Positions 45,882 through 64,000 of a DNA stretch of 64,000 nt are shown piece by piece. Position 1 is the first letter of the stretch; each line of letters starts with the position of its first letter. Under the pieces are notes generated by a model. It had not been told where the DNA came from. It did not search any database and worked only from the letters and a program-made list of their open reading frames with translations. The translations under genes were made by a program, and so were the position numbers. The stretch is from Burkholderia cepacia GG4 (GTDB lineage: Bacteria > Pseudomonadota > Gammaproteobacteria > Burkholderiales > Burkholderiaceae), in assembly GCF_000292915.1 (NCBI RefSeq), contig NC_018513.1, positions 3,286,001-3,350,000 on the forward strand, given 5' to 3'.

Positions 45882-46493
45882 ATGAGATCGTCCATGATTC
45901 GCTATGCGCTGCCACTGATTGCCTGCGCGCTCCTGGCCGGATGCGCGGCCGCCCCGTTGCTCGGCTCTGCCGCGAGCGCCGTGATGCAGGCCGCCGGCGT
46001 CGGCAAGCCTGATCTGCCGGATGCCCAGAAGCCGCCGCGCAATATCGGACTCACGCTCGCCGCCGCGCCCAACCTGAATGCCGCGACCGATCGCAAACCG
46101 CTCGCATTAGTAGTAAGGCTCTACGCGCTGAAGGATCCGACGTCGTTCCAGCAGGCACCGTTCGACGCGTTCACCGATCCGACCAAGGAAAAAGCCGCAC
46201 TGGGCGCCGATCTGTTGAACGTGCGTGAGATCACGCTGATTCCCGGCCAGCGTTATACGGCGACCGAAAAGGTATCGCGCGAAGCGCAGGCATTCGGCAT
46301 TGTCGCGCTGTTCCGCGATCCCGCACTCCAGCGATGGAAACTGACGTTCGACCCGGCGAAGTCGGAGAAATCCGGCATAATCATCGGCCTGCATAATTGC
46401 GCGATGACGGTCACCGATGGTTCTGTCATTGCACCGCAACAGGGTGCACCTTCGCAACCGCTGAATATGCTTTCGTCGGTCACCTGCGGTTAA
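45882..46493 (+). CDS. tssJ: Type VI outer-membrane lipoprotein TssJ
   Basis: This 203-residue lipoprotein has lipobox LAGC (Cys21). The mature domain is a transthyretin-like beta-sandwich with LALVVRLYALKDPTSFQQA, the loop region that contacts TssM. TssJ anchors the membrane complex in the outer membrane. An internal ATG at residue 5 is an alternative start. tssK follows 102 bases later. Confidence 0.93.
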   Translation: MRSSMIRYALPLIACALLAGCAAAPLLGSAASAVMQAAGVGKPDLPDAQKPPRNIGLTLAAAPNLNAATDRKPLALVVRLYALKDPTSFQQAPFDAFTDPTKEKAALGADLLNVREITLIPGQRYTATEKVSREAQAFGIVALFRDPALQRWKLTFDPAKSEKSGIIIGLHNCAMTVTDGSVIAPQQGAPSQPLNMLSSVTCG

Positions 46494-46595
46494 GCATGAC
46501 GCACGAATGTCAATTAACAAGAGTTAACAAATTGGCGATTAATTCGGGCACGACCAAATCGATTACATCGCAACGCCACATTAACCGGATTTGAC

Positions 46596-47942
46596 ATGAG
46601 TTATTCGGCCAAGGTGCTTTGGGGAGAAGGGCTGTTCCTCCGGCCTCAACACTTTCAGCGGCAGGACGCGTACCACGAGGCGCGCCTGTTCGAGTCCATC
46701 CAGGCGATCCAGCCTTACAACTGGGGCGTGCGCTCGGTGCGCATCGACCGCGACGCGCTCGGCAGCAATGTGCTGCGCGTGGCGGAACTCGCACTCGTGT
46801 TCCCGGACGGCGCGCTGTACGCTGCGCCGCAGGCCGACGACCTGCCGCCTCCGATCGCGCTGGACACGCTGCCCGACGGCATCAACGAATTCGTGTTCTA
46901 TCTCGCGCTGCACCCGCTGCGCGAGAACGGCACCAATTACAGCGACGATCCGGCCGCCGGCTTCATGACGCGTTTCGTCAGCGAGCAGACGAGCGTCGCG
47001 GACAACTTCACCGACGCCGCCGAAGCCGACATCACGTTCCTGAAGACGCAGGTCAAGCTGATCGCGCACAGCGAACCGCGCGACCAGCTGCTGTCGGTGC
47101 CGCTCGTGCGCGTGCGCCGCACCGCGACGTCCGGCTTCGAGATCGACGACAGCTTCGTGCCGCCGTGCCTCGCGATCGAGGCGTCGCCGATCCTGCACCA
47201 GCGGCTGCGCCAGCTGGTCGACGCGCTGCAGGCGAAGGTCAACGCGCTGTACGGTTTCCACCGCGAGCCGTCGAAGAACATCATCGAATTCCGCTCGGGC
47301 GACATCGCATCGTTCTGGCTGCTGCACACCGCGAACGCCGCATTCGCGACGCTCGCGCACCTGCACCAGCACGCGGCGCTGCATCCGGAGCGGCTGTTCC
47401 AGGAACTGCTGCGCCTCGCGGGCCAGCTGATGACGTTCTCGAAGGGCTACACGCTCGCCGACCTGCCCGTGTATCGCCATGACGATCCGGGCCCGAGCTT
47501 CGCGCGTCTCGACGTGATGCTGCGCGAACTGCTCGACACCGTGATCTCGACGCGTTACTTCGCGATCACGCTCGACGAGGTGCGTCCGTCGTTCCATCTC
47601 GGCCGCCTCGACTCGGGCAAGATCGACGACAAGACCGAGTTCTATCTGGCGGTGTCCGCGGACATGCCGAGCGTCGAGCTCGTCGATGCGGTGCCGGCCC
47701 GCTTCAAGGTCGGCGCGCCCGACGACGTCGACAAGCTCGTGCTGTCGGCAATGCCCGGCGTGCGGCTCTCGTACACGCCGCAGGTGCCGCCCGCGATCCC
47801 CGTGCGGCCGGGCGCGTGCTACTTCTCGCTCGATTCGCGCGGCGCGCTGTACGAACGCATGCTGCAGGCCCAGTCCGCGATGATCTACGCGCCGACTGGC
47901 ATCAACGACCTGAAATTCGAACTGATCGCGGTCACATCATGA
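46596..47942 (+). CDS. tssK: Type VI baseplate-membrane adaptor TssK
   Basis: This 448-residue protein starts MSYSAKVLWGEGLFLRPQHFQRQD, of which the WGEGLFLRPQHFQ block is a signature of TssK. It trimerises and links the baseplate to the TssL/TssM cytoplasmic domains. Its TGA overlaps the tssL ATG (ATGA), so the two are translationally coupled. Confidence 0.97.
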   Translation: MSYSAKVLWGEGLFLRPQHFQRQDAYHEARLFESIQAIQPYNWGVRSVRIDRDALGSNVLRVAELALVFPDGALYAAPQADDLPPPIALDTLPDGINEFVFYLALHPLRENGTNYSDDPAAGFMTRFVSEQTSVADNFTDAAEADITFLKTQVKLIAHSEPRDQLLSVPLVRVRRTATSGFEIDDSFVPPCLAIEASPILHQRLRQLVDALQAKVNALYGFHREPSKNIIEFRSGDIASFWLLHTANAAFATLAHLHQHAALHPERLFQELLRLAGQLMTFSKGYTLADLPVYRHDDPGPSFARLDVMLRELLDTVISTRYFAITLDEVRPSFHLGRLDSGKIDDKTEFYLAVSADMPSVELVDAVPARFKVGAPDDVDKLVLSAMPGVRLSYTPQVPPAIPVRPGACYFSLDSRGALYERMLQAQSAMIYAPTGINDLKFELIAVTS

Positions 47943-48721
47943 GCTACGCGCCTTCCCTGTTCGGCGACAACGCGCCGGCCCCGCTGCATACCCCGGCGTC
48001 GACCGACGCCGCGTTCCAGGCCCGTTCGCTGCTCGACCTGCTGTACGACGGGTTCTTCATGCTGTTCCTGCTCAAGAACGGCCGCGCGCCCGACAGCGCG
48101 AGCGAGTTCAGCACGAAGATCCAGGAATTCCTGTCGGATTTCGAGCGCGGCGCAAAGAAGCTGAACATCGCGGCCGAGGATGTCTACAGCGCGAAGTTCG
48201 CGTATTGCGCGGCCGTCGACGAAATGGTGCTGTCGTCGCAGTTCAAGATTCGCGCCGACTGGGAACGCCGGCCGCTGCAGCTCGTGCTGTTCGGCGAGCA
48301 GCTCGCGGGCGAGAAGTTCTTCCAGTATCTCGAGGATTGCCGCGCGCAGGGCGCGGCGCGGCTGCAGTCGCTCGAAGTGTTCCACATGTGCCTGCTGCTC
48401 GGCTTCCAGGGCAAGTATCTGCTCGAAGGGCCGGAGAAGCTCGCGTATCTGACCGCGCGGCTCGGCGATGAAATCGCGCACATGAAGGGCAAGCGCGCGC
48501 CGTTCGCGCCGCACTGGCCGCTGCCGGACCAGATCGCGCACCGGTTGAAGCGCGAAGTGCCGGTATGGGCGATCGGTGCCGTGTTCGCGCTCGTCGCGCT
48601 GCTCGGGTATCTCGGGCTAAACACGTACCTGAAGGACAAGACGCTGCAGGCGCTTGCACCGTATTCGCAGGTGATCAAGGTCGGGCCGGAGTCGGCGAAC
48701 CTGACGATTTCGCTGCCTTGA
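47939..48721 (+). CDS. tssL: Type VI inner-membrane protein TssL (DotU), short form
   Basis: This 260-residue protein has the DotU cytoplasmic domain with LFGEQLAGEKFFQYLE and LEVFHMCLLLGFQGKY, followed by one C-terminal membrane helix (about 204-224). No peptidoglycan-binding OmpA domain follows, so this is the short TssL; the separate OmpA-like gene in the cluster may supply that function. The start ATG overlaps the tssK stop. A perfect bidirectional terminator lies downstream. Confidence 0.96.
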   Translation: MSYAPSLFGDNAPAPLHTPASTDAAFQARSLLDLLYDGFFMLFLLKNGRAPDSASEFSTKIQEFLSDFERGAKKLNIAAEDVYSAKFAYCAAVDEMVLSSQFKIRADWERRPLQLVLFGEQLAGEKFFQYLEDCRAQGAARLQSLEVFHMCLLLGFQGKYLLEGPEKLAYLTARLGDEIAHMKGKRAPFAPHWPLPDQIAHRLKREVPVWAIGAVFALVALLGYLGLNTYLKDKTLQALAPYSQVIKVGPESANLTISLP

Positions 48722-50550: not shown

Positions 50551-50982
50551 GGTCCCAGTCTCCTGATCGTCGGCGATCCAGCTCAATCGGCGTCGATCGT
50601 GTTTTCGAATGGAATGGTGCGATGCATGGTCAATGCGTCGCCGGGAGCGAGATCCCGGTTGTCCGCCTGCGCGACGCGGGCACGGCGTCGCATGCGGGTT
50701 GCGCACGCCCGGTCGAGGCGATGGTGCCGCGACGGGAACGTGCAACCTTAGGGGGGCATCGTGACGCGGGCATGACAGGAACAGGGGGCGTAACTGCGGA
50801 GCGACAGGCGCGGATCGCGCGGGCGCGTCTGCGGGTACGCGAGTCGCCGAAGATCCTGCCGGGGCATCATGCTTGGCTGGGCAGCTCAGGCCGATGTGGG
50901 GCGAGCGGCGCTTGCTGCCTGCGACGCAGGATTACGTTTCGACAGTGGTTGGACGGCGCGTTGGCAAACCGCGCGGCCTCCG
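50551..50982. other. Region without a supported gene; upstream of toxin remnant
   Basis: These 432 bases hold frames in several phases but none with recognisable protein character. A HigB-like toxin should begin around 50820, yet its N-terminal half cannot be found in any of the three forward frames, so this is probably decayed sequence. Confidence 0.5.
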
Positions 50983-51150
50983 GGACTGTGGGAAATCCGC
51001 ATGACCGGGCGTGATGGCATCGCGCGGGCGAGATACGTCGCTCGGACACGGCAACGCCTGATCGTGCTGCACGTGTTCGTGAAGAAGACGCAGAGAACAC
51101 CGCGTCGCGCTATCGAAATGGCGTGCGCCCGGATGAATGAGGATTGCGCG
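50983..51150 (+). pseudogene. HigB/Gp49-like toxin, C-terminal remnant
   Basis: The translated segment LWEIRMTGRDGIARARYV, then LIVLHVFVKKTQRTP and RAIEMACARM, is the C-terminal half of RelE-superfamily HigB (phage Gp49-like) toxins. The first half of such a toxin (about 45 residues) is not recognisable upstream in any frame. No stop codon separates the segment from the antitoxin that follows, and both are in the same frame. Intact toxins of this family cut mRNA on the ribosome; this copy is very likely inactive. Confidence 0.65.
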
Positions 51151-51894
51151 ATGACCAGCCTTGCAACTTTGAAGAAGCGCCTGCTGGCCGATCCGGCTAC
51201 GCAGGCCGAGTATGACGCACAAGCACCGGAGTTCGCCGTTGCCCGCAAGCCGGTCGCGGCACGCGTACGCGCCGGATTGACGCAGGAACAGGTCGCGGAG
51301 AGGATGGAGACCACTCAATCGACCATCGCGCGGATGGAGAGTGGTCGCGCGATGCCGTCGCTGCGCACGCTGTCGCGCTACGCCGAGGCAACGGGAAGCC
51401 GGGCCGTGGTACATCTGGAAGCGATGAAGTCGTTCGATTGCCGCGTGATGGCACCACGCGCGCGCAAGGCCCACGCAGGCGATCGCCGCAAACGAAAAAG
51501 GGGTTACGGAAAATTCCGTAACCCCTCTTCGGATTTGGTGCCGGCTGCAGCACTCGAACCATCCGCTGAAACCGTTGCCGCACATGGATTCCAGCGACTT
51601 CAATCCAAAAAGTACCAACACCGATACCAACAACCCTGCTGGCTGCAGGCGTACGACTGCGGACTGAGCCAATCGCCGCACTCCCACCCGACGAACATAC
51701 TAGCTCGCGCCGGACAAGTCTTTCAGGCGGACACCCTCGTAAAATATGTAGTGACGCTGTTCCAGCCGCACATAGGTAGCCGCCAGCTTGGCGCCGAAGT
51801 CGCGGGAGTTCAGCTTCTCGTAGCTGCGATTTGCCGCAGTCCATGCGAGGTAGTCCTCATGGAGAGATTTGTACTGCGTTTTCCCTTGGAATGA
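51151..51894 (+). CDS. HigA-like XRE antitoxin with lost stop codon
   Basis: From ATG 51151 (AGGA upstream) the frame begins MTSLATLKKRLLADPATQ and has a clear XRE helix-turn-helix: AGLTQEQVAERMETTQSTIARMESG, ending ATGSRAVVHLE near residue 89. HigA proteins of this type usually stop about there. Here no stop is met, and the frame runs on for over 150 residues across a terminator and an integration site, ending at TGA 51892-51894 within the antisense of the primase gene. Only about 51151-51420 is likely to be meaningful. With its toxin decayed, selection to keep the stop may have been lost. Confidence 0.65.
   Translation: MTSLATLKKRLLADPATQAEYDAQAPEFAVARKPVAARVRAGLTQEQVAERMETTQSTIARMESGRAMPSLRTLSRYAEATGSRAVVHLEAMKSFDCRVMAPRARKAHAGDRRKRKRGYGKFRNPSSDLVPAAALEPSAETVAAHGFQRLQSKKYQHRYQQPCWLQAYDCGLSQSPHSHPTNILARAGQVFQADTLVKYVVTLFQPHIGSRQLGAEVAGVQLLVAAICRSPCEVVLMERFVLRFPLE
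51495..51526 (-). terminator. tRNA-style terminator at island boundary
   Basis: AGGGGTTACGGAA (51499-51511) and TTCCGTAACCCCT (51514-51526) are perfectly complementary. On the minus strand the stem runs into five T residues (A-run 51495-51499). It lies 10 bases downstream of a tRNA-like CCA end on the same strand, as expected for the original terminator of a tRNA gene. Confidence 0.88.
51536..51560 (-). other. tRNA 3'-end fragment, probable attachment site (att)
   Basis: Read on the minus strand, the 25 bases give a T-loop TTCGAGT, then GCTGC, then AGCCGGC-A-CCA: the T-arm 3' strand, acceptor 3' strand, discriminator and encoded CCA of a tRNA gene. The 5' strand of the T-stem is wrong (GATGG, which cannot pair with GCTGC) and no anticodon arm follows, so this is not a functional tRNA. 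It is the short duplicate left when an element integrates in a tRNA 3' end. The acceptor implies an intact gene starting GCCGGCT; identity not assigned. Confidence 0.75.
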
Positions 51895-54015
51895 CATCGT
51901 ACGTTCCTCGCGCCATGCCTCAAAGCCATCCGCACGTTTGCGTTGCTCGTTACCCGCCCTGCGGACCCTCTCGGGCGGCTGCAAGCCGTTCTCAAGGTAG
52001 TCGCGCAACCCCTGTAGTAGCAGATTCAGGATACCCGGCAATTGGAGAAGTAGCTTGCTCTTAAGGTCGCGGTCAATCTCCTCGTCCGAAAACGTGTGCA
52101 TAAATGGTATGACAATGATGCGGCGCCAGATGGCGTTATCGTCGGCACTGATTACCGGCATTTCGTTCGCGATCATGACCGGCGTGAACTCGGGCAGAAA
52201 CTCGACATCTGCACCGTAAAGCGCTCGTGCCGCCACACGATCCCCGCCTGTCAACTGCTTGACCAACCCTCCATCGAGCGTATGCTTTTTGGTCGGCTCA
52301 TTCACGCTCACGAACCGCTTTCCCTCTAGTTTCGCGATCGACGGCGTCGGTCCGTCTGTCATCGTGCCCTTGGCCATGAGCGCCGAAACTCCCAAGGTGC
52401 AGGCCAAGCCCCCGAAAATCGCATTTAGCACCTCGACGGCAACCGATTTGCCATTGCGCCCGGTCGGGCCCAGAAAAAACACGAAGAGATGCTCTTTCGG
52501 CTTGCCGAGCAGCATTTGGCCGCAGAGGCGCAGGAAGAACCGGACAAGCTCGTCGTCCCCCTCGAATATCTCGGCAAGAAACGCCTCAAATCTCGGAGCA
52601 CTCGCTTGCGGGTCAAACGTTACCGCGCTGTTGTGATACGAGATCGGTCTGATACGGCCAGGAACCAATTCGCCGCTTAGCAGGTTCAACACGCCGTTGG
52701 CAACGGGGAAGTACGGATACTTCGTCGCCTGCAGCGAATCCGATGCATCGAGCATAAATTCCAGTGCGGTACGGCCAAGCGAATCCAATGCTTGGCCGCT
52801 TCCCGAATGCTTCGCGACGGCAGCAACCACCGCTAGATTGCTATCTGTGCCGCTCGCCTTCTGGATCAAACGATGACCGTACGACTCGACAACAGTCCTG
52901 AACGCAAACTGATCGAGCCGAGCGTAACGGTTCTCGTTCCAACGCAGCGCTTGCAGCCACTGTTTCTCGCCATGCCCATTGCGAGCAACTGCGATGTCCG
53001 GATACATAATGTCTGCCAGCATCCGGCCAAGGCTACGCTCGTTCAACACTTCGCGGGCCGCCGCAACCTTGCGTCGACCGGGGTTTGTCCAGCCCTTGAG
53101 TTGCGCCATGTAGAAAATCGACGAAGGCGATGCCGACGCTCCGGCTGCGAAGGACTTCCACGCGATCTGCATCCGGTGTTCGTCGTACTTGTTCGAGCGA
53201 CGCGACCACTCGTCAACAAGCTTGAATCCGTCTTCGCCAAGCGCTGCTGCGGCCCCAATCACCTTGATCCACGTGTCATACGGATCGGGGTCTATGTGAT
53301 GCAACGCGTCGCGCAGATCGGCAAGGCGATGGCGTTTGTCCTCGTCGGTCTTGACCGACACGCCAAGCGAACGTGTCACCGGGATGCGCGCCTGCAATGA
53401 CGCCGCGATTAGATCGACATCGAATGCGGCAGCTAGCTCGTCATAGTCGTACCACCGGTCCGGCTCGTACAGCGACAACGCCACTTCGTTGCCGTGCTTT
53501 TGGTTCTTGAAGCCCGGTAGGCGTATCGCTTGCGTCAGATTCGCGAAGCAGGCGTCGCCCTCGAAGCGATGTGCAAGCGCGACGACCATCTTGCGAAACA
53601 TGTCACTGTCGACAATGCGGGCCTTAAGAATCCATATCAGGTGCTGCCGACCACCAGACGTGTTGATCGCGATCGACGGACGGTACGGCGCATTATTCCA
53701 ACGAGACATGTCCACAGCGTAGTCAAGATCGACCGCGACAGCCCACGTGCCAACTACACGGGCCGACGACAAGCCATCGTCATCGGTCATGCCGATGAGC
53801 ATGAATGCTTCCCAGCCGTCAGCCTCGGACTCAGCGAAATGCTGCTGCTGGTCCGTGATCGTCCCCCAAGTGCTCGCAACCTTGAGCACCGTCCTCCCGT
53901 CCGGGCCGCGCAGTATCCACTTGATCGTGAACTTCTGCCTGTCATCATGCACCGCCTGACATACCTTCAAAGCATCCTGAAAGGCCGTATCTTTCCCCAA
54001 CTCAATCCTGCTCAT
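51700..54015 (-). CDS. P4/D5-type primase-helicase
   Basis: This 771-residue replication protein has an N-terminal RepB-like archaeo-eukaryotic primase region with VAVDLDYAVD and SGGRQHLIWIL, a PriCT-2 domain at about 232-300 (DALHHIDPDPYDTWIKVIGA), a D5-N region, then a superfamily 3 helicase with Walker A GPTGRNGKS near residue 515 and NEP/TGGD blocks after it. Phage P4 alpha-type proteins of this design start replication of satellite phages and plasmids. The start ATG 54015 has AGGA upstream. It lies next to alpA, as in P4-like islands. Confidence 0.92.
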   Translation of the reverse strand: MSRIELGKDTAFQDALKVCQAVHDDRQKFTIKWILRGPDGRTVLKVASTWGTITDQQQHFAESEADGWEAFMLIGMTDDDGLSSARVVGTWAVAVDLDYAVDMSRWNNAPYRPSIAINTSGGRQHLIWILKARIVDSDMFRKMVVALAHRFEGDACFANLTQAIRLPGFKNQKHGNEVALSLYEPDRWYDYDELAAAFDVDLIAASLQARIPVTRSLGVSVKTDEDKRHRLADLRDALHHIDPDPYDTWIKVIGAAAALGEDGFKLVDEWSRRSNKYDEHRMQIAWKSFAAGASASPSSIFYMAQLKGWTNPGRRKVAAAREVLNERSLGRMLADIMYPDIAVARNGHGEKQWLQALRWNENRYARLDQFAFRTVVESYGHRLIQKASGTDSNLAVVAAVAKHSGSGQALDSLGRTALEFMLDASDSLQATKYPYFPVANGVLNLLSGELVPGRIRPISYHNSAVTFDPQASAPRFEAFLAEIFEGDDELVRFFLRLCGQMLLGKPKEHLFVFFLGPTGRNGKSVAVEVLNAIFGGLACTLGVSALMAKGTMTDGPTPSIAKLEGKRFVSVNEPTKKHTLDGGLVKQLTGGDRVAARALYGADVEFLPEFTPVMIANEMPVISADDNAIWRRIIVIPFMHTFSDEEIDRDLKSKLLLQLPGILNLLLQGLRDYLENGLQPPERVRRAGNEQRKRADGFEAWREERTMSFQGKTQYKSLHEDYLAWTAANRSYEKLNSRDFGAKLAATYVRLEQRHYIFYEGVRLKDLSGAS

Positions 54016-54391: not shown

Positions 54392-54707
54392 GGATGCCAT
54401 CCTCAACTTCAAGCAGTTATGTCTTGAATGTCGAAGACGAGGGAAGACGGTCAAATGAGATGCCAACCGTCCGGCCTTTAGGGAGGCCCACCAGCGTAAA
54501 GACAAATCGGCTGGTTACCCGGTGCAGTGGGTGCGCTGCGCGTCCTCTACGGTCGTATTCGCCGAGTGGGAAACAACCCGCTGGTGATCTCGCGACTAGC
54601 TCAGTCAAACTCTCGCACGAAGGGCTAGTGGGTCGCCAACTACTTCTCGTCCTATGTAACCGGCTGGAAGTGCTGCCAGTATGCACGAAAATCCGCTGCG
54701 ACACCAC
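54392..54707. other. Intergenic region between alpA and the GTPase operator
   Basis: No gene supported. It holds the alpA-primase promoter region and sequence leading to the GTPase operator. Frames here are open but have no protein-like composition. Confidence 0.5.
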
Positions 54708-54790
54708 GTTGTTCCGGCGTTGTTCCAGCCCATTGACAACACCCAGACTTATCGGCAATACTTCGCTCAGAGGAACAACAACGGAACAAC
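54708..54790 (+). promoter_or_regulatory. Four-octamer operator around the GTPase promoter
   Basis: GTTGTTCC occurs twice in direct order (54708-54715 and 54719-54726) and its complement GGAACAAC occurs twice (54772-54779 and 54783-54790), each pair spaced 11 bases, one helical turn. The two 19-base arms are inverted copies matching at 17 of 19. Between them lie TTGACA (54733-54738) and AATACT (54757-54762), 18 bases apart. The right arm ends 11 bases before the GTPase ATG. This is a strong candidate for a tightly regulated promoter; the binding protein is unknown. Confidence 0.8.
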
Positions 54791-54801
54791 AAGGCCAATC
54801 C

Positions 54802-57042
54802 ATGACCGATACGTTCTACACCGCGAGCCTGAGCCGGACCCAGGGTCGGAGTACCTGGGCAATTATCTTCCGTCACCCGAAGCGTACGGACCTGACTACT
54901 GGCAGGACGGGACTCCGGGTGCGACAGAGTCTCAAGACCGACGACGAAAAAGAGGCAGCAAAGCTCCGGGACGATATGAACGTGCTGCTTTCCAGCCCGC
55001 ACCTGTGGGATATCGCCGCTCGCGACCAGGCTCTCGCCGCACTCGATCCCCGCGTCGTGGACATCTTTTACTACAAGCTCGAGGGCGGCGAAACCGACTT
55101 CCTCGGCCTGCGCGAGACGGCAATTGCGCTGCCCTCTGCACAGTCAAGCGAATACCGCCGGGCGCTCCTGCTCGGCACCACGGGGGCCGGAAAGACGACA
55201 CTGCTGCGTCAGATCATCGGCACCGATCCGACGCGCGAGCGCTTCCCCTCCACTTCCACGGCAAAGACGACAGTTCACGAGACGGAGATCGTGCCAAGTG
55301 AAGGCGCATTCCGGGCCGTGGTGACGTTCTTCCCAATGGAAGACGTGCGCGAACACCTGAAGGAGTGCGCATCGGCGGCGGTCCTTGCCGCGTACCGCGG
55401 CGAGCCTGACGGTGACCAGATGCGCCGTCTTCTGACGCACGTCAACCAGCGCTTTCGCTTTAGCTACGTGCTGGGCAACGGGCCGGTGAAGGAGGTCAGC
55501 GACTTCGACGACGAACCCGAGGCTGACGAAGCCTCAGACAGCAGCGACTTGCTCAAGCGCACGAACGAGGTTCTGGCACAGGCACTCGCCGCGCTCAAAG
55601 ACGTCGCGGTTCGGCATGGCGACGAATTGCGACAGGAACTGAATGCGACAGATGAAAAAGACCAGCGCGTCATCGACGAGCTGTTCGAGGATGAGTTGGA
55701 CAACCGAACCCGCGACGACGAGAGCTTTCAGCAGGTTGTGGACGCACTGATGGACGAGATAGAGGAGCGCTTCGCACTTCTCGCCGAAGGCAAGCTTCAA
55801 AAGACCAAGGTCGGCTGGCCATTGAGTTGGACGTGGGAGACGGAAGACCGGGACGCCTTCATGCAGACGCTGGCCCGCTTCTCCTCCAACTACGCGCCGC
55901 TCTTCGGGACGCTCCTTACACCGCTAGTCAACGGTGTTCGCGTAGCCGGGCCGTTCAAGCCTTCATGGAGTAACGAAGTTCCGAAACTCGCGCTACTCGA
56001 CGGTGAGGGCCTAGGCCACACGCCGCGATCGATGTCCACGATTTCGACCACGCTCGCGAAGCGTATCGAGATGGTGGACGCCGTGATTTTGGTCGACAAT
56101 GCGACGCAACCGATGTTGGCGGCGCCAGTGGCAGCAATGAAGGAGCTGGTGTCCTCAGGTAGTGCTTCCAAGCTGATTTTCGCGTTCACGCACTTCGACC
56201 GTGTAGAAGGCCCCAACCTGCCGACTCCCACTATGCGAGTCAATCATGTCCTTGAATCTGGCGAGAACGTGCTCGCATCCGTCGGCGAGGATCTCGGGCC
56301 GTTCGCCGAACGCGCACTGCGAACCCGACTGACGAGCGCGCGGGTGTTCCTTTCCGGCATCGACGCGAAACTCGACAGCGCTTCCGCCGACGGACGGCGG
56401 ACGATCACGCAGATCGACAAATTGCTGGGAATGGTAGACGGCATCGTAGCGCGGCCGACGCGTGCCGACTCGCGTCCGGCCTACGACCGCATGAATCTAG
56501 TCCTCGCAGTTGAGCGCGCTGCCGAGATTTTCCGAAACGCCTGGCGCCCTCGGCTCGGCCTCACCATCAAACAGGGGGTCGAGAAAGAACACTGGACGCG
56601 AGTGAAAGCGCTCAGCCGTCGCCTCGCGACCGGCATCGGCGACGAGTATGACAGTCTGAGGCCGGTGGCGGATTTGAAGCTACAACTCCAGCAGCGCCTC
56701 TATGTCCTCCTTCAAAACCCGATTTCGTGGTCTGGGCCTGAGCCGGATGACGACGACAAGCAGCGTCTTTACGATGACATCGCCGAGGAGCTAAGCCGCA
56801 AGCTCATCGAGCTTTCCTCTCGACGCATCCGCACCGATCGCCTGTCGGAGTGGCGCAGCGCGTTCGACGAATCGGGACCACGTTCGACCTTCCGGCGCGC
56901 CGAGTTAATCGCCGGACGAATCTATGACCGAGCCGCCCCAATTCCGGACGTAACGCCCTCGCCTGACCGAAACGCGTTCCTGCAGGAAGTCGCAGAAGCA
57001 ACGCGTGAGGCCGCCGAATCCATTGGCGCAAAGCTTTTTTGA
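54802..57042 (+). CDS. Large dynamin-like GTPase with inserted coiled region (unknown)
   Basis: This 746-residue protein shows GTPase motifs far apart: G1 GTTGAGKT at 125-132, a Thr-rich switch I region near 150-158, G3 DGEG at 400-403 within LALLDGEG, and a G4-like THFD at 463-466. The roughly 240 residues between switch I and G3 are acidic and helical (238-335), an insert not found in ordinary small GTPases. The C-terminal 280 residues are helical. Residues 15-110 resemble arm-type DNA-binding folds of integrases (FRHPKRTDLTTGRTGLRV), a weak likeness. It may act on membranes or nucleic acid. The ATG follows an AAGG site and a strong operator. Confidence 0.75.
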   Translation: MTDTFYTASLSRTQGRSTWAIIFRHPKRTDLTTGRTGLRVRQSLKTDDEKEAAKLRDDMNVLLSSPHLWDIAARDQALAALDPRVVDIFYYKLEGGETDFLGLRETAIALPSAQSSEYRRALLLGTTGAGKTTLLRQIIGTDPTRERFPSTSTAKTTVHETEIVPSEGAFRAVVTFFPMEDVREHLKECASAAVLAAYRGEPDGDQMRRLLTHVNQRFRFSYVLGNGPVKEVSDFDDEPEADEASDSSDLLKRTNEVLAQALAALKDVAVRHGDELRQELNATDEKDQRVIDELFEDELDNRTRDDESFQQVVDALMDEIEERFALLAEGKLQKTKVGWPLSWTWETEDRDAFMQTLARFSSNYAPLFGTLLTPLVNGVRVAGPFKPSWSNEVPKLALLDGEGLGHTPRSMSTISTTLAKRIEMVDAVILVDNATQPMLAAPVAAMKELVSSGSASKLIFAFTHFDRVEGPNLPTPTMRVNHVLESGENVLASVGEDLGPFAERALRTRLTSARVFLSGIDAKLDSASADGRRTITQIDKLLGMVDGIVARPTRADSRPAYDRMNLVLAVERAAEIFRNAWRPRLGLTIKQGVEKEHWTRVKALSRRLATGIGDEYDSLRPVADLKLQLQQRLYVLLQNPISWSGPEPDDDDKQRLYDDIAEELSRKLIELSSRRIRTDRLSEWRSAFDESGPRSTFRRAELIAGRIYDRAAPIPDVTPSPDRNAFLQEVAEATREAAESIGAKLF

Positions 57043-57070
57043 ACAAGAAGGGGGCGAGGAAGGCGGCTGA

Positions 57071-57102
57071 GCGACTATTCACGGAGTTCCGTAAGTAGTC
57101 GC
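57071..57102. terminator. Imperfect palindrome after the GTPase gene
   Basis: GCGACTATTCACGGA and TCCGTAAGTAGTCGC pair at 13 of 15 positions around a 2-base centre. TTTT follows 6 bases later. It may terminate the GTPase transcript or attenuate it before the DUF2971 gene. Confidence 0.5.
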
Positions 57103-57162
57103 CCCTGACCTTTTGAACCTCCCCAACAACTCATTGACGAACCGAGCGAAGAGACCTACCAA

Positions 57163-57984
57163 ATGCTGATTTATAAGTACGTCCCCGTGGCCAGATTTTT
57201 TTCGAACTTCAAATTCCGCTTTACTCCGGCAGAAGACTTGAACGATCCGATGGAACTGGTACCCGACATTCGATTGCGTGATCCAGCTGCATATGCACGT
57301 GACATTACCAGCCGCAACATTGAGTCCGCCTACTTCCGCCTTCTATTGTCGAATCCCGATCTATCGCCTGAGGAGGCGTGGGCACGTATCGCTGCGGCTG
57401 CCGAGCAGCTCGAACGACAGTTCGATCCAATTGCGACGGTGAAGAAAATCTACGAAACATTCATGCGAACCACCAACAAGAACGTTGGCGTTCTGTCTCT
57501 GTCTGAAGATCCTTGTAGTGCGCCGATGTGGGCGCACTATGCCGATGAATATAAAGGCCTAGCCATCGGGCTGGACACAAGTAGCGAATTCTTTCAACCA
57601 AAACCCGAGGAACCAAGGGTCTGCGGGCAACTGATGAACGTTGTCTACACTGATACTTCTCCGGTTGTTTATGTCGAGCCAGGAAAACTCGATATTCCAA
57701 AGGAAGTGTTTTTCACAAAGGCACGAAGTTGGGAATACGAGAAGGAATGGCGAATCATTAAATATTTGCCACAAGCTTCTGAAATCGTTGACGGCCCCGA
57801 AGGCAAGAAAATTTGCCTGTTCGACGTACCACCCGCGGCCGTCAAGGAAGTGATATTTGGCTCGAAGATTAGTGCCGATGTGCTGGAGCAAGTCGAGCAG
57901 GCACTACAGGCGCGCGCACCGCACGTTTTGAGAAAACGGATCACGCCCGTACCTGGCGACGGCCTGCGGGTTGTGGATTGCTAA
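57163..57984 (+). CDS. DUF2971-family protein
   Basis: This 273-residue protein begins LIYKYVPVARFFSNFKFRFT and has the DUF2971 landmarks: FTPAEDLNDPMEL, VGVLSLSEDPCSAPMWAHYAD, KGLAIGLD and SWEYEKEWRI. Conserved Tyr, His, Asp and Glu residues suggest an enzyme, but the activity is not known. GC content is well below the chromosome, so it was acquired. It follows the GTPase gene by 120 bases on the same strand and may form a two-gene unit with it. DUF2971 proteins are often found in variable islands. Confidence 0.85.
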   Translation: MLIYKYVPVARFFSNFKFRFTPAEDLNDPMELVPDIRLRDPAAYARDITSRNIESAYFRLLLSNPDLSPEEAWARIAAAAEQLERQFDPIATVKKIYETFMRTTNKNVGVLSLSEDPCSAPMWAHYADEYKGLAIGLDTSSEFFQPKPEEPRVCGQLMNVVYTDTSPVVYVEPGKLDIPKEVFFTKARSWEYEKEWRIIKYLPQASEIVDGPEGKKICLFDVPPAAVKEVIFGSKISADVLEQVEQALQARAPHVLRKRITPVPGDGLRVVDC

Positions 57985-58076: not shown

Positions 58077-58352
58077 CTAGTCGCGGCCTATGAAGCCATC
58101 GACGTACTGCGAGTGATGTTCGTCGCACAGAGGCCCTGCGTCTGTCTCGTACTCAGCGGGCTCGTCGCAAAACTCGCACGTCTGGCTGCGCAAACGCGCC
58201 TCAGCCTGACAGTCCGGACACATCGGGTTACGCGGGTTGAACTCGTCGTCGATGCGTTCGAAATCCGCCTCGCCCGTTTCGCACCCGCATACGCGACACA
58301 GCACTTCCTCGGCTTCGTCCGGCTCGACTTGGTGGTCTAGGTGATCACACAT
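58077..58352 (-). CDS. Small Cys-rich zinc-ribbon-like protein
   Basis: This 91-residue acidic protein begins MCDHLDHQVEPDEAEE. It has three CxxC pairs (CRVC, CPDC, CEFC) plus a later CDEHH, enough to bind two zinc ions. The middle has EFNPRNPMCPDCQAEARLR. No named family is recognised. Its ATG 58352 overlaps the last codons of the upstream 335-residue gene, with GGGTGA in that gene's end as ribosome site, so the two are translationally coupled. Possibly a nucleic-acid- or protein-binding partner. Confidence 0.7.
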   Translation of the reverse strand: MCDHLDHQVEPDEAEEVLCRVCGCETGEADFERIDDEFNPRNPMCPDCQAEARLRSQTCEFCDEPAEYETDAGPLCDEHHSQYVDGFIGRD

Positions 58353-59352
58353 GGCTGTCACCCTTCGTGAAGCGACTGAAGAACGCAGCAGCGCGATCCG
58401 CTTCGCTCGGGAACCAATCGGGGAAGTACGTGCGCGCGAGAGCCTGATACTTGTCGTCGAGGCCGTGCAGCACCACCATGAAGGCTGGCACGGGGCCGCC
58501 TTGCGTCATCACCACCGTCATGGTCATCGAACGCTGCACCTCGTCAATGGTGTGCTTTGCGTCCGGGTAGCCGCCTTGCATCGCAAGTAGCGCGGCCTGC
58601 ATGGCGCCGACGTGTTCACCCTGGGCGAGCAGGAGGCGGCCCAACGCTTCGAGTGCCTGCGGATGCGCATTCTCGTGCGCCCGGAGCAGCAGTTCTACGC
58701 TGCGCTTGGTCAAGCCTCGCTGCGTGAAGCACAACAACAGGGCTGCGAGGTATTGCGAGTGAACGTGGCCGCTACCCGCCAGTTGGAGCATCTCGTTGAT
58801 CACCTGCCGGCTGGCCGCGATCTCGTACCCGCGCACGACTTCACGCGCGCCGGATTGCCGCCAGCTCTCCATCGGCATCACATAGAGGATGCCGTCAAAA
58901 GCCACCTTGAAGCGCTCGACAACCGCCTCGCGCAACTCAGCCACGAGGTCATTGTGGCTCTTGCCGAAGCGCTTGCGCGTGTGATGATCGTACTTCTGCT
59001 GTTTCGACAGCTCGCTGCCTTCGAATTCGGCGAGCGCCTTCGCACGCAGGTCCTTCAACGTCTCCGCGCGGGACACGGGCAGATCGTCGACAGTGAGCAA
59101 GAGTGTATCCGTTACCCAACTGGCTTTCTCAAGCACGCCTTCTCGATCCATCTTTTCGACTTCGAAGGGCGACGTGGGCAGCAGCAGCGGACGGCGGTAT
59201 GTGGGGCGCGATTTGGCAGAATCTGAAGATGCGTCACCGCCCGAGGGACGCGAGACGTCCTCGGTAAAGTCAGGCTTCTTGTTCAGGAACACGCGGCGCA
59301 CATCGTACGTGCGGCCAAGCGCGGTAAGACGATATGAGTTTCGTTCAGACAT
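58345..59352 (-). CDS. Helical-repeat protein of unknown function
   Basis: This 335-residue protein starts at ATG 59352 (MSERNSYRLTALGRTYDV) with GAGGA eight bases upstream. It has a charged N-terminus and a middle region with RKRFGKSHNDLVAELREAVVERF. A stretch of Sel1/TPR-like helices lies at about 190-275 (LAALLLCFTQRGLTKRSVELLL, EALGRLLLAQGEHVGAMQAA). No catalytic motif or family is recognised. It overlaps the Cys-rich gene by 8 bases and is divergent from the resolvase. It may be a scaffold. Confidence 0.7.
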   Translation of the reverse strand: MSERNSYRLTALGRTYDVRRVFLNKKPDFTEDVSRPSGGDASSDSAKSRPTYRRPLLLPTSPFEVEKMDREGVLEKASWVTDTLLLTVDDLPVSRAETLKDLRAKALAEFEGSELSKQQKYDHHTRKRFGKSHNDLVAELREAVVERFKVAFDGILYVMPMESWRQSGAREVVRGYEIAASRQVINEMLQLAGSGHVHSQYLAALLLCFTQRGLTKRSVELLLRAHENAHPQALEALGRLLLAQGEHVGAMQAALLAMQGGYPDAKHTIDEVQRSMTMTVVMTQGGPVPAFMVVLHGLDDKYQALARTYFPDWFPSEADRAAAFFSRFTKGDSHV

Positions 59353-59417
59353 TTGCACAGTCCTCGTTCTGGTTCAGGACATGCCGGCCACCCCACACCC
59401 TTTCCCGTGACTAGGAA

Positions 59418-63699: not shown

Positions 63700-64000
63700 T
63701 TACGAAGGAGGGCGTTGCAGGAAAACCCTTTCCACCATGCCCCTCAAGCGCTGCTCTTCGTCATGGATGTTCGCAGCGCCCAAATTCATAAAGTATTGGT
63801 AGACCGGAATTCCTCCGACCAGCCCCAAACATTGCAGTCCTCGCTGATCCTCTGACCGAGACGGGAACACAAAGACGGCAGCGTCTGAAGCATACGATGC
63901 CGCATATGCAATTAGTTGATTGAGGTCGCTTCTCTCGGCGACTGTCTTCGTCTCCTTGTACTTCATGTCAAGCACGATGTTGGCAGGGAGTCGCGGAGGC
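63700..64000 (-). CDS. McrC-like PD-(D/E)XK nuclease, C-terminal part (partial)
   Basis: The frame is open into the right edge and stops near 63700, leaving about 99 residues. It reads PPRLPANIVLDMKYK, with the D-x-K core of PD-(D/E)XK nucleases, then SDLNQLIAYAASYASDAAVF with the downstream Gln-x3-Tyr helix. This layout fits McrC, the nuclease subunit of McrBC modified-cytosine restriction, or a related enzyme. The mcrB GTPase should lie upstream, outside the window. Only the C-terminus is visible, so the subfamily is tentative. Confidence 0.6.
   Translation of the reverse strand, partial: PPRLPANIVLDMKYKETKTVAERSDLNQLIAYAASYASDAAVFVFPSRSEDQRGLQCLGLVGGIPVYQYFMNLGAANIHDEEQRLRGMVERVFLQRPPS

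Follow-up and report, generated by a model that had tools for sequence, protein, structure and literature searches.

We describe a GTPase gene and its control region in a 64,000-nucleotide stretch of Burkholderia cepacia GG4 (contig NC_018513.1, positions 3,286,001 to 3,350,000), which is named the window in this work and provides the coordinates used below; loci collected for comparison are numbered with the prefix L. A previous sequence-only reading of the window had proposed that an operator-controlled giant GTPase and an adjacent DUF2971 protein form an anti-phage system. The elements on which the present analysis is centred are the following.

54708-54726, + strand: upstream operator arm, two direct GTTGTTCC half-sites located 3 bases apart (exact)
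54733-54762, + strand: sigma-70-like promoter, TTGACA-18-AATACT, between the operator arms (best match)
54772-54790, - strand: downstream operator arm, two inverted half-sites reading GGAACAAC on the + strand and ending just 5' of the start codon region
54802-57042, + strand: GTPase of 746 amino acids (reading frame, alignment and structure model)
GTPase residues 1-66: predicted integrase-type DNA-binding-like domain of three strands and one helix (model)
GTPase residues ~112-553: predicted G domain of the dynamin superfamily, containing an insert that is mostly helical (model)
GTPase residues ~566-746: predicted helical C-terminus (model)

The GTPase and its predicted fold

The GTPase reading frame is not a chance frame, for it has thousands of relatives: a phmmer search that scored 8000 candidates produced 3137 matches with E <= 0.001. 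Identity within the best 120 of these is 59-94% over 86-100% of the protein, and those that bear a name are annotated as hypothetical protein, ATP-binding protein, EcfA2, signal recognition particle receptor subunit or Rab family GTPase. Its G1 motif (GTTGAGKTT) starts at residue 125, while the G3 motif (DGEG) and the G4-like motif (THFD) occupy residues 400-403 and 463-466, respectively, exactly as the sequence-only reading had placed them. In an alignment of 37 homologues, residues G125, G130, K131, T132, T133, D400 to G403 and F465 are invariant and D466 is nearly so.

In the predicted structure the G motifs, whose capacity to form a nucleotide pocket had been left to structure prediction, lie in a dynamin-like nucleotide-binding domain, whose G-domain fold is of the dynamin type and includes P-loop, DxxG and TKxD-like motifs. 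Two GTPase strands of the model (residues 170-176 and 376-383) are separated by ≈200 residues, which are mostly helical and include two short strands; the sequence-only reading had given an acidic helical insert of ≈240 residues. The helical nature of the C-terminus, also claimed beforehand, is reproduced by the model. On this protein the Pfam Dynamin_N profile scores 15 bits, under its cut-off of 27, the PADLOC LeoBC model matches at noise level (E 0.11), and a search for hydrophobic stretches returned none that is clear (maximum 1.2 over 19 residues). In view of the Dynamin_N score, the protein is termed dynamin-like by predicted fold only, and is not assigned to the dynamin superfamily. The inserted residues, the lack of a clear membrane segment and the sub-threshold Dynamin_N score distinguish it from bacterial dynamin-like proteins and mitofusin/Fzo1, and its fusion to an integrase-type DNA-binding-like domain under an operator of its own sets it apart from BDLP, DynA, IniA, SynDLP and mitofusin/Fzo1.

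Two outlying relatives were observed. A 258-amino acid gene at L033:9045-9821 (- strand) matches GTPase residues 532-745 only and is possibly a split or fragmentary relative, and a 977-amino acid protein at L034:335-3268, with 22% identity over residues 119-713, is a distant relative that possibly represents a longer sister family.

The operator and the N-terminal domain

The control region noted at 54708 by the sequence-only reading indeed consists of repeats, and these are conserved in relatives: four half-sites, two per direction, bracket the promoter in 34 of the 36 loci whose GTPase possesses the 66-residue N-terminal domain (N-domain), the exceptions being L038, where they are degenerate, and L039, where there are none. 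This count leaves aside a fragment (L021), a locus starting inside the protein (L084), loci on the same contigs as L054 and L055 (L073 and L074), other copies of counted loci (L002-L005, L024, L029 and L030) and partial or very distant matches (L006, L022, L023, L025-L028, L033 and L034). Four Rhodococcus loci were counted separately, and the operator is lacking in all four of these homologues, whose GTPases start after the N-domain.

Among the first 21 loci with an N-domain, 19 carry the operator at <=4 mismatches of 32, compared to 7 mismatches for the best shuffled upstream DNA. All 13 viral-contig loci fetched after definition of the pattern contain it at <=3 mismatches, their proteins showing a 45-52% match to the first sequence of the query alignment; these 13 make up the strict held-out set, given that the upstream DNA of L054 and L055, which complete the count of 34 of 36, had already been examined, and include the near-duplicates L080/L081 and L082/L083. 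When judged by spacer, 29 of the 34 operator loci are non-redundant, and across these the pairwise identity amounts to 92% for the half-sites and 89% for the -35 box, figures that are raised because both elements were located as best matches, versus 29% for the following 15 bases and 27% for the 30 bases upstream, these flanking stretches being unselected. The promoters of the 19 loci scanned are best matches with 2-4 mismatches of 12 each, obtained with no shuffle control.

In the 6.47-Mb genome to which the window belongs, a double half-site with fewer than 3 mismatches occurs only as the two arms of the GTPase promoter, the 17 other matches all having 3 mismatches and a backwards control pattern giving 19 matches. 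The exact compound operator pattern was found in two of 398 family genomes (this one and G063), both of which encode a close GTPase; G250 and G260 escaped it, their distant GTPases being associated with variant sites, and it gave no match in the viral contigs, in our opinion because the members present there have 2-base gaps or variant half-sites.

The gap between half-sites, being either 3 or 2 bases, is equal on both arms in 34/34 loci, and in the same 34/34 loci a gap of 3 is associated with a 10-residue N-domain loop and a gap of 2 with a 9-residue loop (the gap values having been taken from the operator count), an association that probably represents one event on the tree. In L055 an identical change is present in all four half-sites, and in L031 three of the four read GATGTTCC in either direction.

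The N-domain consists of three strands and one helix, whether taken from the full-length model or modelled alone (pLDDT, predicted local distance difference test, of 83.9). The DUF6538 profile is matched by 14 of 15 GTPase members scanned, with a best E of 0.014 that is below the Pfam cut-off, and scores 15.1 bits on the window GTPase (cut-off 27). An hhalign comparison of the N-domain with a DUF6538 profile, for which 10 of the 16 DUF6538 matches from family genomes were used, returned a probability of 72%, an E of 3.3e-5 and a score of 27.7; the reversed profile scored 9.1 and none of 150 column shuffles reached the observed score (best 22.9). When five DUF6538 host proteins were scanned for a phage integrase domain, three scored above the cut-off, one below it and one gave no match; PF14657 had a single match in 94 class genomes, which was left unused. 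A PDB sequence search with the N-domain profile returned nothing at E <= 10, and a fold search with the isolated domain gave no significant match, its best 50 rows including no tyrosine-integrase entry and AP2 entries at noise level. On these results the N-domain is termed integrase-arm-like with moderate certainty and, its Pfam score being under the cut-off, is not filed as a DUF6538 member. What it has in common with the DUF6538/arm-type domains of tyrosine integrases is the arrangement of strands and helix and the profile similarity; what differs is its fusion to a GTPase instead of a recombinase, and the position of its presumed sites around a promoter instead of an attachment core.

Binding of the operator by the N-domain, with repression as its consequence, would be the simplest reading of the link between cassette and domain. 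Alternatively, an unlinked repressor might bind the operator and the N-domain might do something else, such as binding a partner or foreign DNA, the match of the N-domain to integrase domains being remote and its operator binding a proposal. This alternative is considered improbable, as the operator travels with the GTPase across hosts and elements, is absent where the N-domain is absent, and has a half-site spacing that tracks the length of the N-domain loop.

Mobility and changing neighbours

A GTPase match is present in 5 of 299 family genomes (including the genome of the window, and with one of the five being a short partial match), in 3 of 369 class genomes (the same genome and two partial matches), in 4 of 398 phylum genomes (again the same genome, together with a full homologue, a distant relative and a short match) and in 11 of 72,556 plasmid records, three of which (H4, H5 and H8) are not included among the fetched loci. 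No homologue was found in 50,697 records of named phages, and the E. coli genomes gave no DNA match. Since this distribution is rare and patchy, the GTPase genes are suggested to be mobile. When the last 20 kilobases of the window were compared by BLASTN to L007 or L009, a single match was obtained, 54707-57108, which starts one base before the operator; the window matches L010 at 54772-57051. L008 (Burkholderia ambifaria) has the chromosomal flank in common at 92% and the left half of the island at 81% as far as 57035, after which the match ceases. Judged from these DNA comparisons, operator and GTPase constitute a cassette that is a mobile unit. The left border of the island falls at 50788-51496, the flank being 92% identical to L008 until 50788 and island homology running from 51496.

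The occurrence of the gene on plasmids and mobile islands, combined with an NTPase, a DNA-binding-like domain and promoter repeats, would also fit a segregation or maintenance module, in which the GTPase would act on centromere-like repeats near its own promoter in the manner of plasmid partition proteins, the TubZ and ParM systems serving as comparison. Such a role is very unlikely in our estimation: there are only four half-sites in one fixed geometry at one promoter, the genome contains one operator, just the 11 plasmid records mentioned above hold a homologue, and the gene is likewise found in defence islands and, singly, inside viral structural clusters.

Within these viral contigs (IMG/VR), the GTPase lies beside opposite-strand genes in L078-L080, L082, L083 and L086-L088. 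A minor tail protein gene (phrog_290) adjoins it in L080, L082 and L088; its neighbours further include tail terminator and tape measure genes in L088, head and portal protein genes in L087 and DUF6441 in L078 and L080, and those in L079, L083 and L086 are similar-looking, the structural assignment resting on the loci scanned. The L075 GTPase gene lies behind a capsid/protease gene that is encoded on its own strand. Morons are separate genes that bring their own control region into a cluster of late genes and frequently run on the opposite strand. The GTPases of L080 and L088, which are positioned on the opposite strand between the minor tail gene and the DUF6441 or tail-terminator genes and have their own operator, are by gene order morons in position and build, a description that applies to the viral members only and not to the window. 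Viral-contig scans with query A4 produced 16 loci, A1 and P0110 retrieved the same two contigs, and P0001 and the Rhodococcus alignment gave no match.

The genes adjoining the GTPase vary between loci. A SEC-C protein gene (487-490 residues) overlaps the GTPase stop in L007 and L009-L012; Shedu follows in L013 (E 5e-139); in L017 a 263-residue gene is succeeded by a homologue of the L013 Shedu, and L016 contains a homologue of that 263-residue gene. A Druantia-like helicase lies upstream of the GTPase in L036, where a CBASS effector (E 1.6e-156) and a cyclase (E 1.6e-115) are encoded downstream; in L008 the neighbours are a 524-residue gene and genes for a DrmD-like helicase and a type III methylase. 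L015 has an Abi_alpha gene nearby, and L013, L014, L018 and L019 have a divergent 614-residue gene, with a HipA_C match in L018. BREX, type I restriction-modification, Abi or DNA methylase genes occur near the homologue on Rhodococcus plasmids. The SEC-C remnant alone follows the GTPase in the window and in L008, and a Shedu-like frame is interrupted in L019, the GTPase frames being open in all. Shedu (SduA) and SEC-C proteins are operon partners in some loci and have been replaced or have disappeared in others, whereas the operator and the GTPase are kept. By eye, PD-(D/E)XK-like motifs are visible in partners at L016:7300-8148 (282 amino acids; L016 and L017), L008:12400-13974 (524 amino acids) and L009:12235-13704 (SEC-C); Pfam showed no PD-(D/E)XK nuclease in the partners, and the clear tool match among operon partners is Shedu only.

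The main rival to a self-contained module is that the GTPase is mainly a nucleotide-sensing transcription switch and that its operon neighbour (the SEC-C protein, Shedu or the 282-amino acid protein) is the real effector. The downstream gene overlaps the GTPase or lies within ≈60 bases of it in L007, L009-L013, L016-L018 and L038, in L013 this gene is the known defence gene Shedu, and the operator would control the whole operon. However, the next downstream gene is on the opposite strand in viral L079, L080, L083, L087 and L088, as well as in L015 and L040, the GTPase remains open where its partner is truncated or interrupted (the window, L008 and L019), and in the genome of the window the operator is found at the GTPase promoter only. 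We therefore regard a purely regulatory GTPase as unlikely.

In the window itself, the following further features surround the cassette.

57039-57098, + strand: truncated SEC-C partner-gene remnant of 19 codons and a stop, overlapping the GTPase stop like the full gene in L007 and L009-L012
57163-57984, + strand: DUF2971 protein of 273 amino acids, PADLOC candidate PDC-S31 (PF11185, 32.2 bits, cut-off 22)
51700-54015, - strand: P4-type primase-helicase of the host island, also present in L008
54197-54505, - strand: AlpA-like regulator belonging to the host island (PF05930 at 20.6 bits, narrowly below its cut-off of 21)
63700-63975, - strand: McrC, interrupted by the end of the window (Pfam match weak for the part inside, gene complete outside it in L035)

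The DUF2971 gene is situated 120 bases downstream of the GTPase on the same strand, as had been read, and matches a PADLOC single-gene defence candidate, which are the points in favour of a two-gene anti-phage system. The intervening gap is occupied by the SEC-C remnant, found by comparing reading frames across loci, and the DUF2971 gene of the window consequently lies behind what remains of an older partner. Moreover, any DUF2971 gene was detected in just 2 of 26 other GTPase-bearing genomes or records, some of them fragments, and a nearby one in none, so that, among the records compared, PDC-S31 adjoins the GTPase in the window only; BLASTP of the window protein against the loci then collected matched its own genome only; and the stretch of cassette DNA that is homologous to L007-L010 stops at 57035-57108, short of this gene. 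A conserved GTPase-DUF2971 pair is refuted by the 0/26 nearby occurrences, the own-genome match and the remnant. The gene looks like an accidental neighbour rather than a conserved partner, and joint action of the two proteins is, in our view, extremely unlikely. Nor is the GTPase confined to defence islands, homologues being present in viral structural clusters and on a plasmid (L040) among mainly metabolic genes.

The restriction-type nuclease that had been assigned to the island is McrC: beyond the window end, L035:701-4706 of the same island contains McrC, an AAA ATPase in the McrB position and an N6/N4 DNA methylase. McrBC, considered as a possible partner, is further along the island than the GTPase, and a tyrosine integrase with Arm-DNA-bind_3 is encoded further along still (L035:9584-10930). 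A 337-amino acid protein with a weak TPR match is encoded at 58345-59358 (- strand), overlapped by a 94-amino acid protein with cysteine pairs at 58077-58361. Left of the island, 45882-48721 (+ strand) encodes what we take to be type VI secretion components. Transfer RNA and Rfam scans of the window returned none.

A proposed mechanism and its meaning

The conserved operator and its association with the N-domain, the dynamin fold of the predicted structure and the variability of the neighbours are results of computation, and on balance we are modestly inclined to read the cassette as a mobile, self-contained, autoregulated GTPase module. DNA binding by the N-domain, repression rather than activation, bridging, a trigger and an anti-phage outcome are steps that we infer, and the sequence of events could be as follows. 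The N-domain would bind the four half-sites flanking the promoter of its own gene, and dynamin-like pairing of DNA-bound protomers across both arms would hold this promoter closed, thereby keeping the GTPase gene at a low, self-limited level. Bridging is suggested by the symmetry of the arms around the promoter together with a dynamin-type domain that may pair. During invasion, a changed nucleotide state or a changed binding partner would free the GTPase from DNA; it would then accumulate and act by dynamin-like assembly against the invader, either on its own, the arrangement of the viral contigs, or together with an exchangeable gene transcribed alongside it (for a SEC-C protein, Shedu or others). 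The specific version in which the dynamin represses itself, GTPase dimers or filaments on the DNA clamping the promoter through their integrase-like domains and phage detection through the GTP cycle turning repressor into effector, would be a novel type of immune switch; it is advanced tentatively and we hold it to be rather doubtful. An effector role against phages is deduced from genomic context and from the precedent of DynA, which delays lysis of phage-infected Bacillus subtilis (PMC8844932); the GTPase is probably anti-phage.

Among known systems, the DO-GTPase conflict systems of Kaur et al. 2020 (PMC7159879), which combine such GTPases with GAP1 and GASH or FNIII proteins and often feature paralogous GTPase pairs and zinc ribbons, resemble the cassette in having a GTPase core with variable effectors; the words 'AP2' and 'dynamin' have 0 occurrences in the main text of that paper. 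Identity with DO-GTPase/GAP1 systems found no match in what was examined, a Pfam scan of ten selected neighbours giving no such family and no GAP1-specific search being included. Among the open-access titles and abstract starts retrieved in literature searches, none dealt with a DNA-binding dynamin or with this GTPase family. The operator-GTPase cassette is a scattered mobile module that is apparently undescribed within the literature searched, which supports the earlier view of an undescribed large GTPase with an operator in defence surroundings.

Dynamin-like proteins are known as membrane machines. The family described here, with more than 100 close full-length relatives, joins a predicted dynamin-like GTPase to an integrase-type DNA-binding-like domain, keeps its control element nearly constant amid random flanking DNA, and offers an example of neighbour-gene replacement beside a GTPase whose control cassette is retained. 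If the self-repressor version is true, this would be, to our knowledge, the first DNA-binding dynamin and a one-gene sensor, regulator and effector carried by islands, plasmids and phages; the question raised is whether a dynamin can bind DNA and govern its own promoter, so that a mobile defence gene spares its host.

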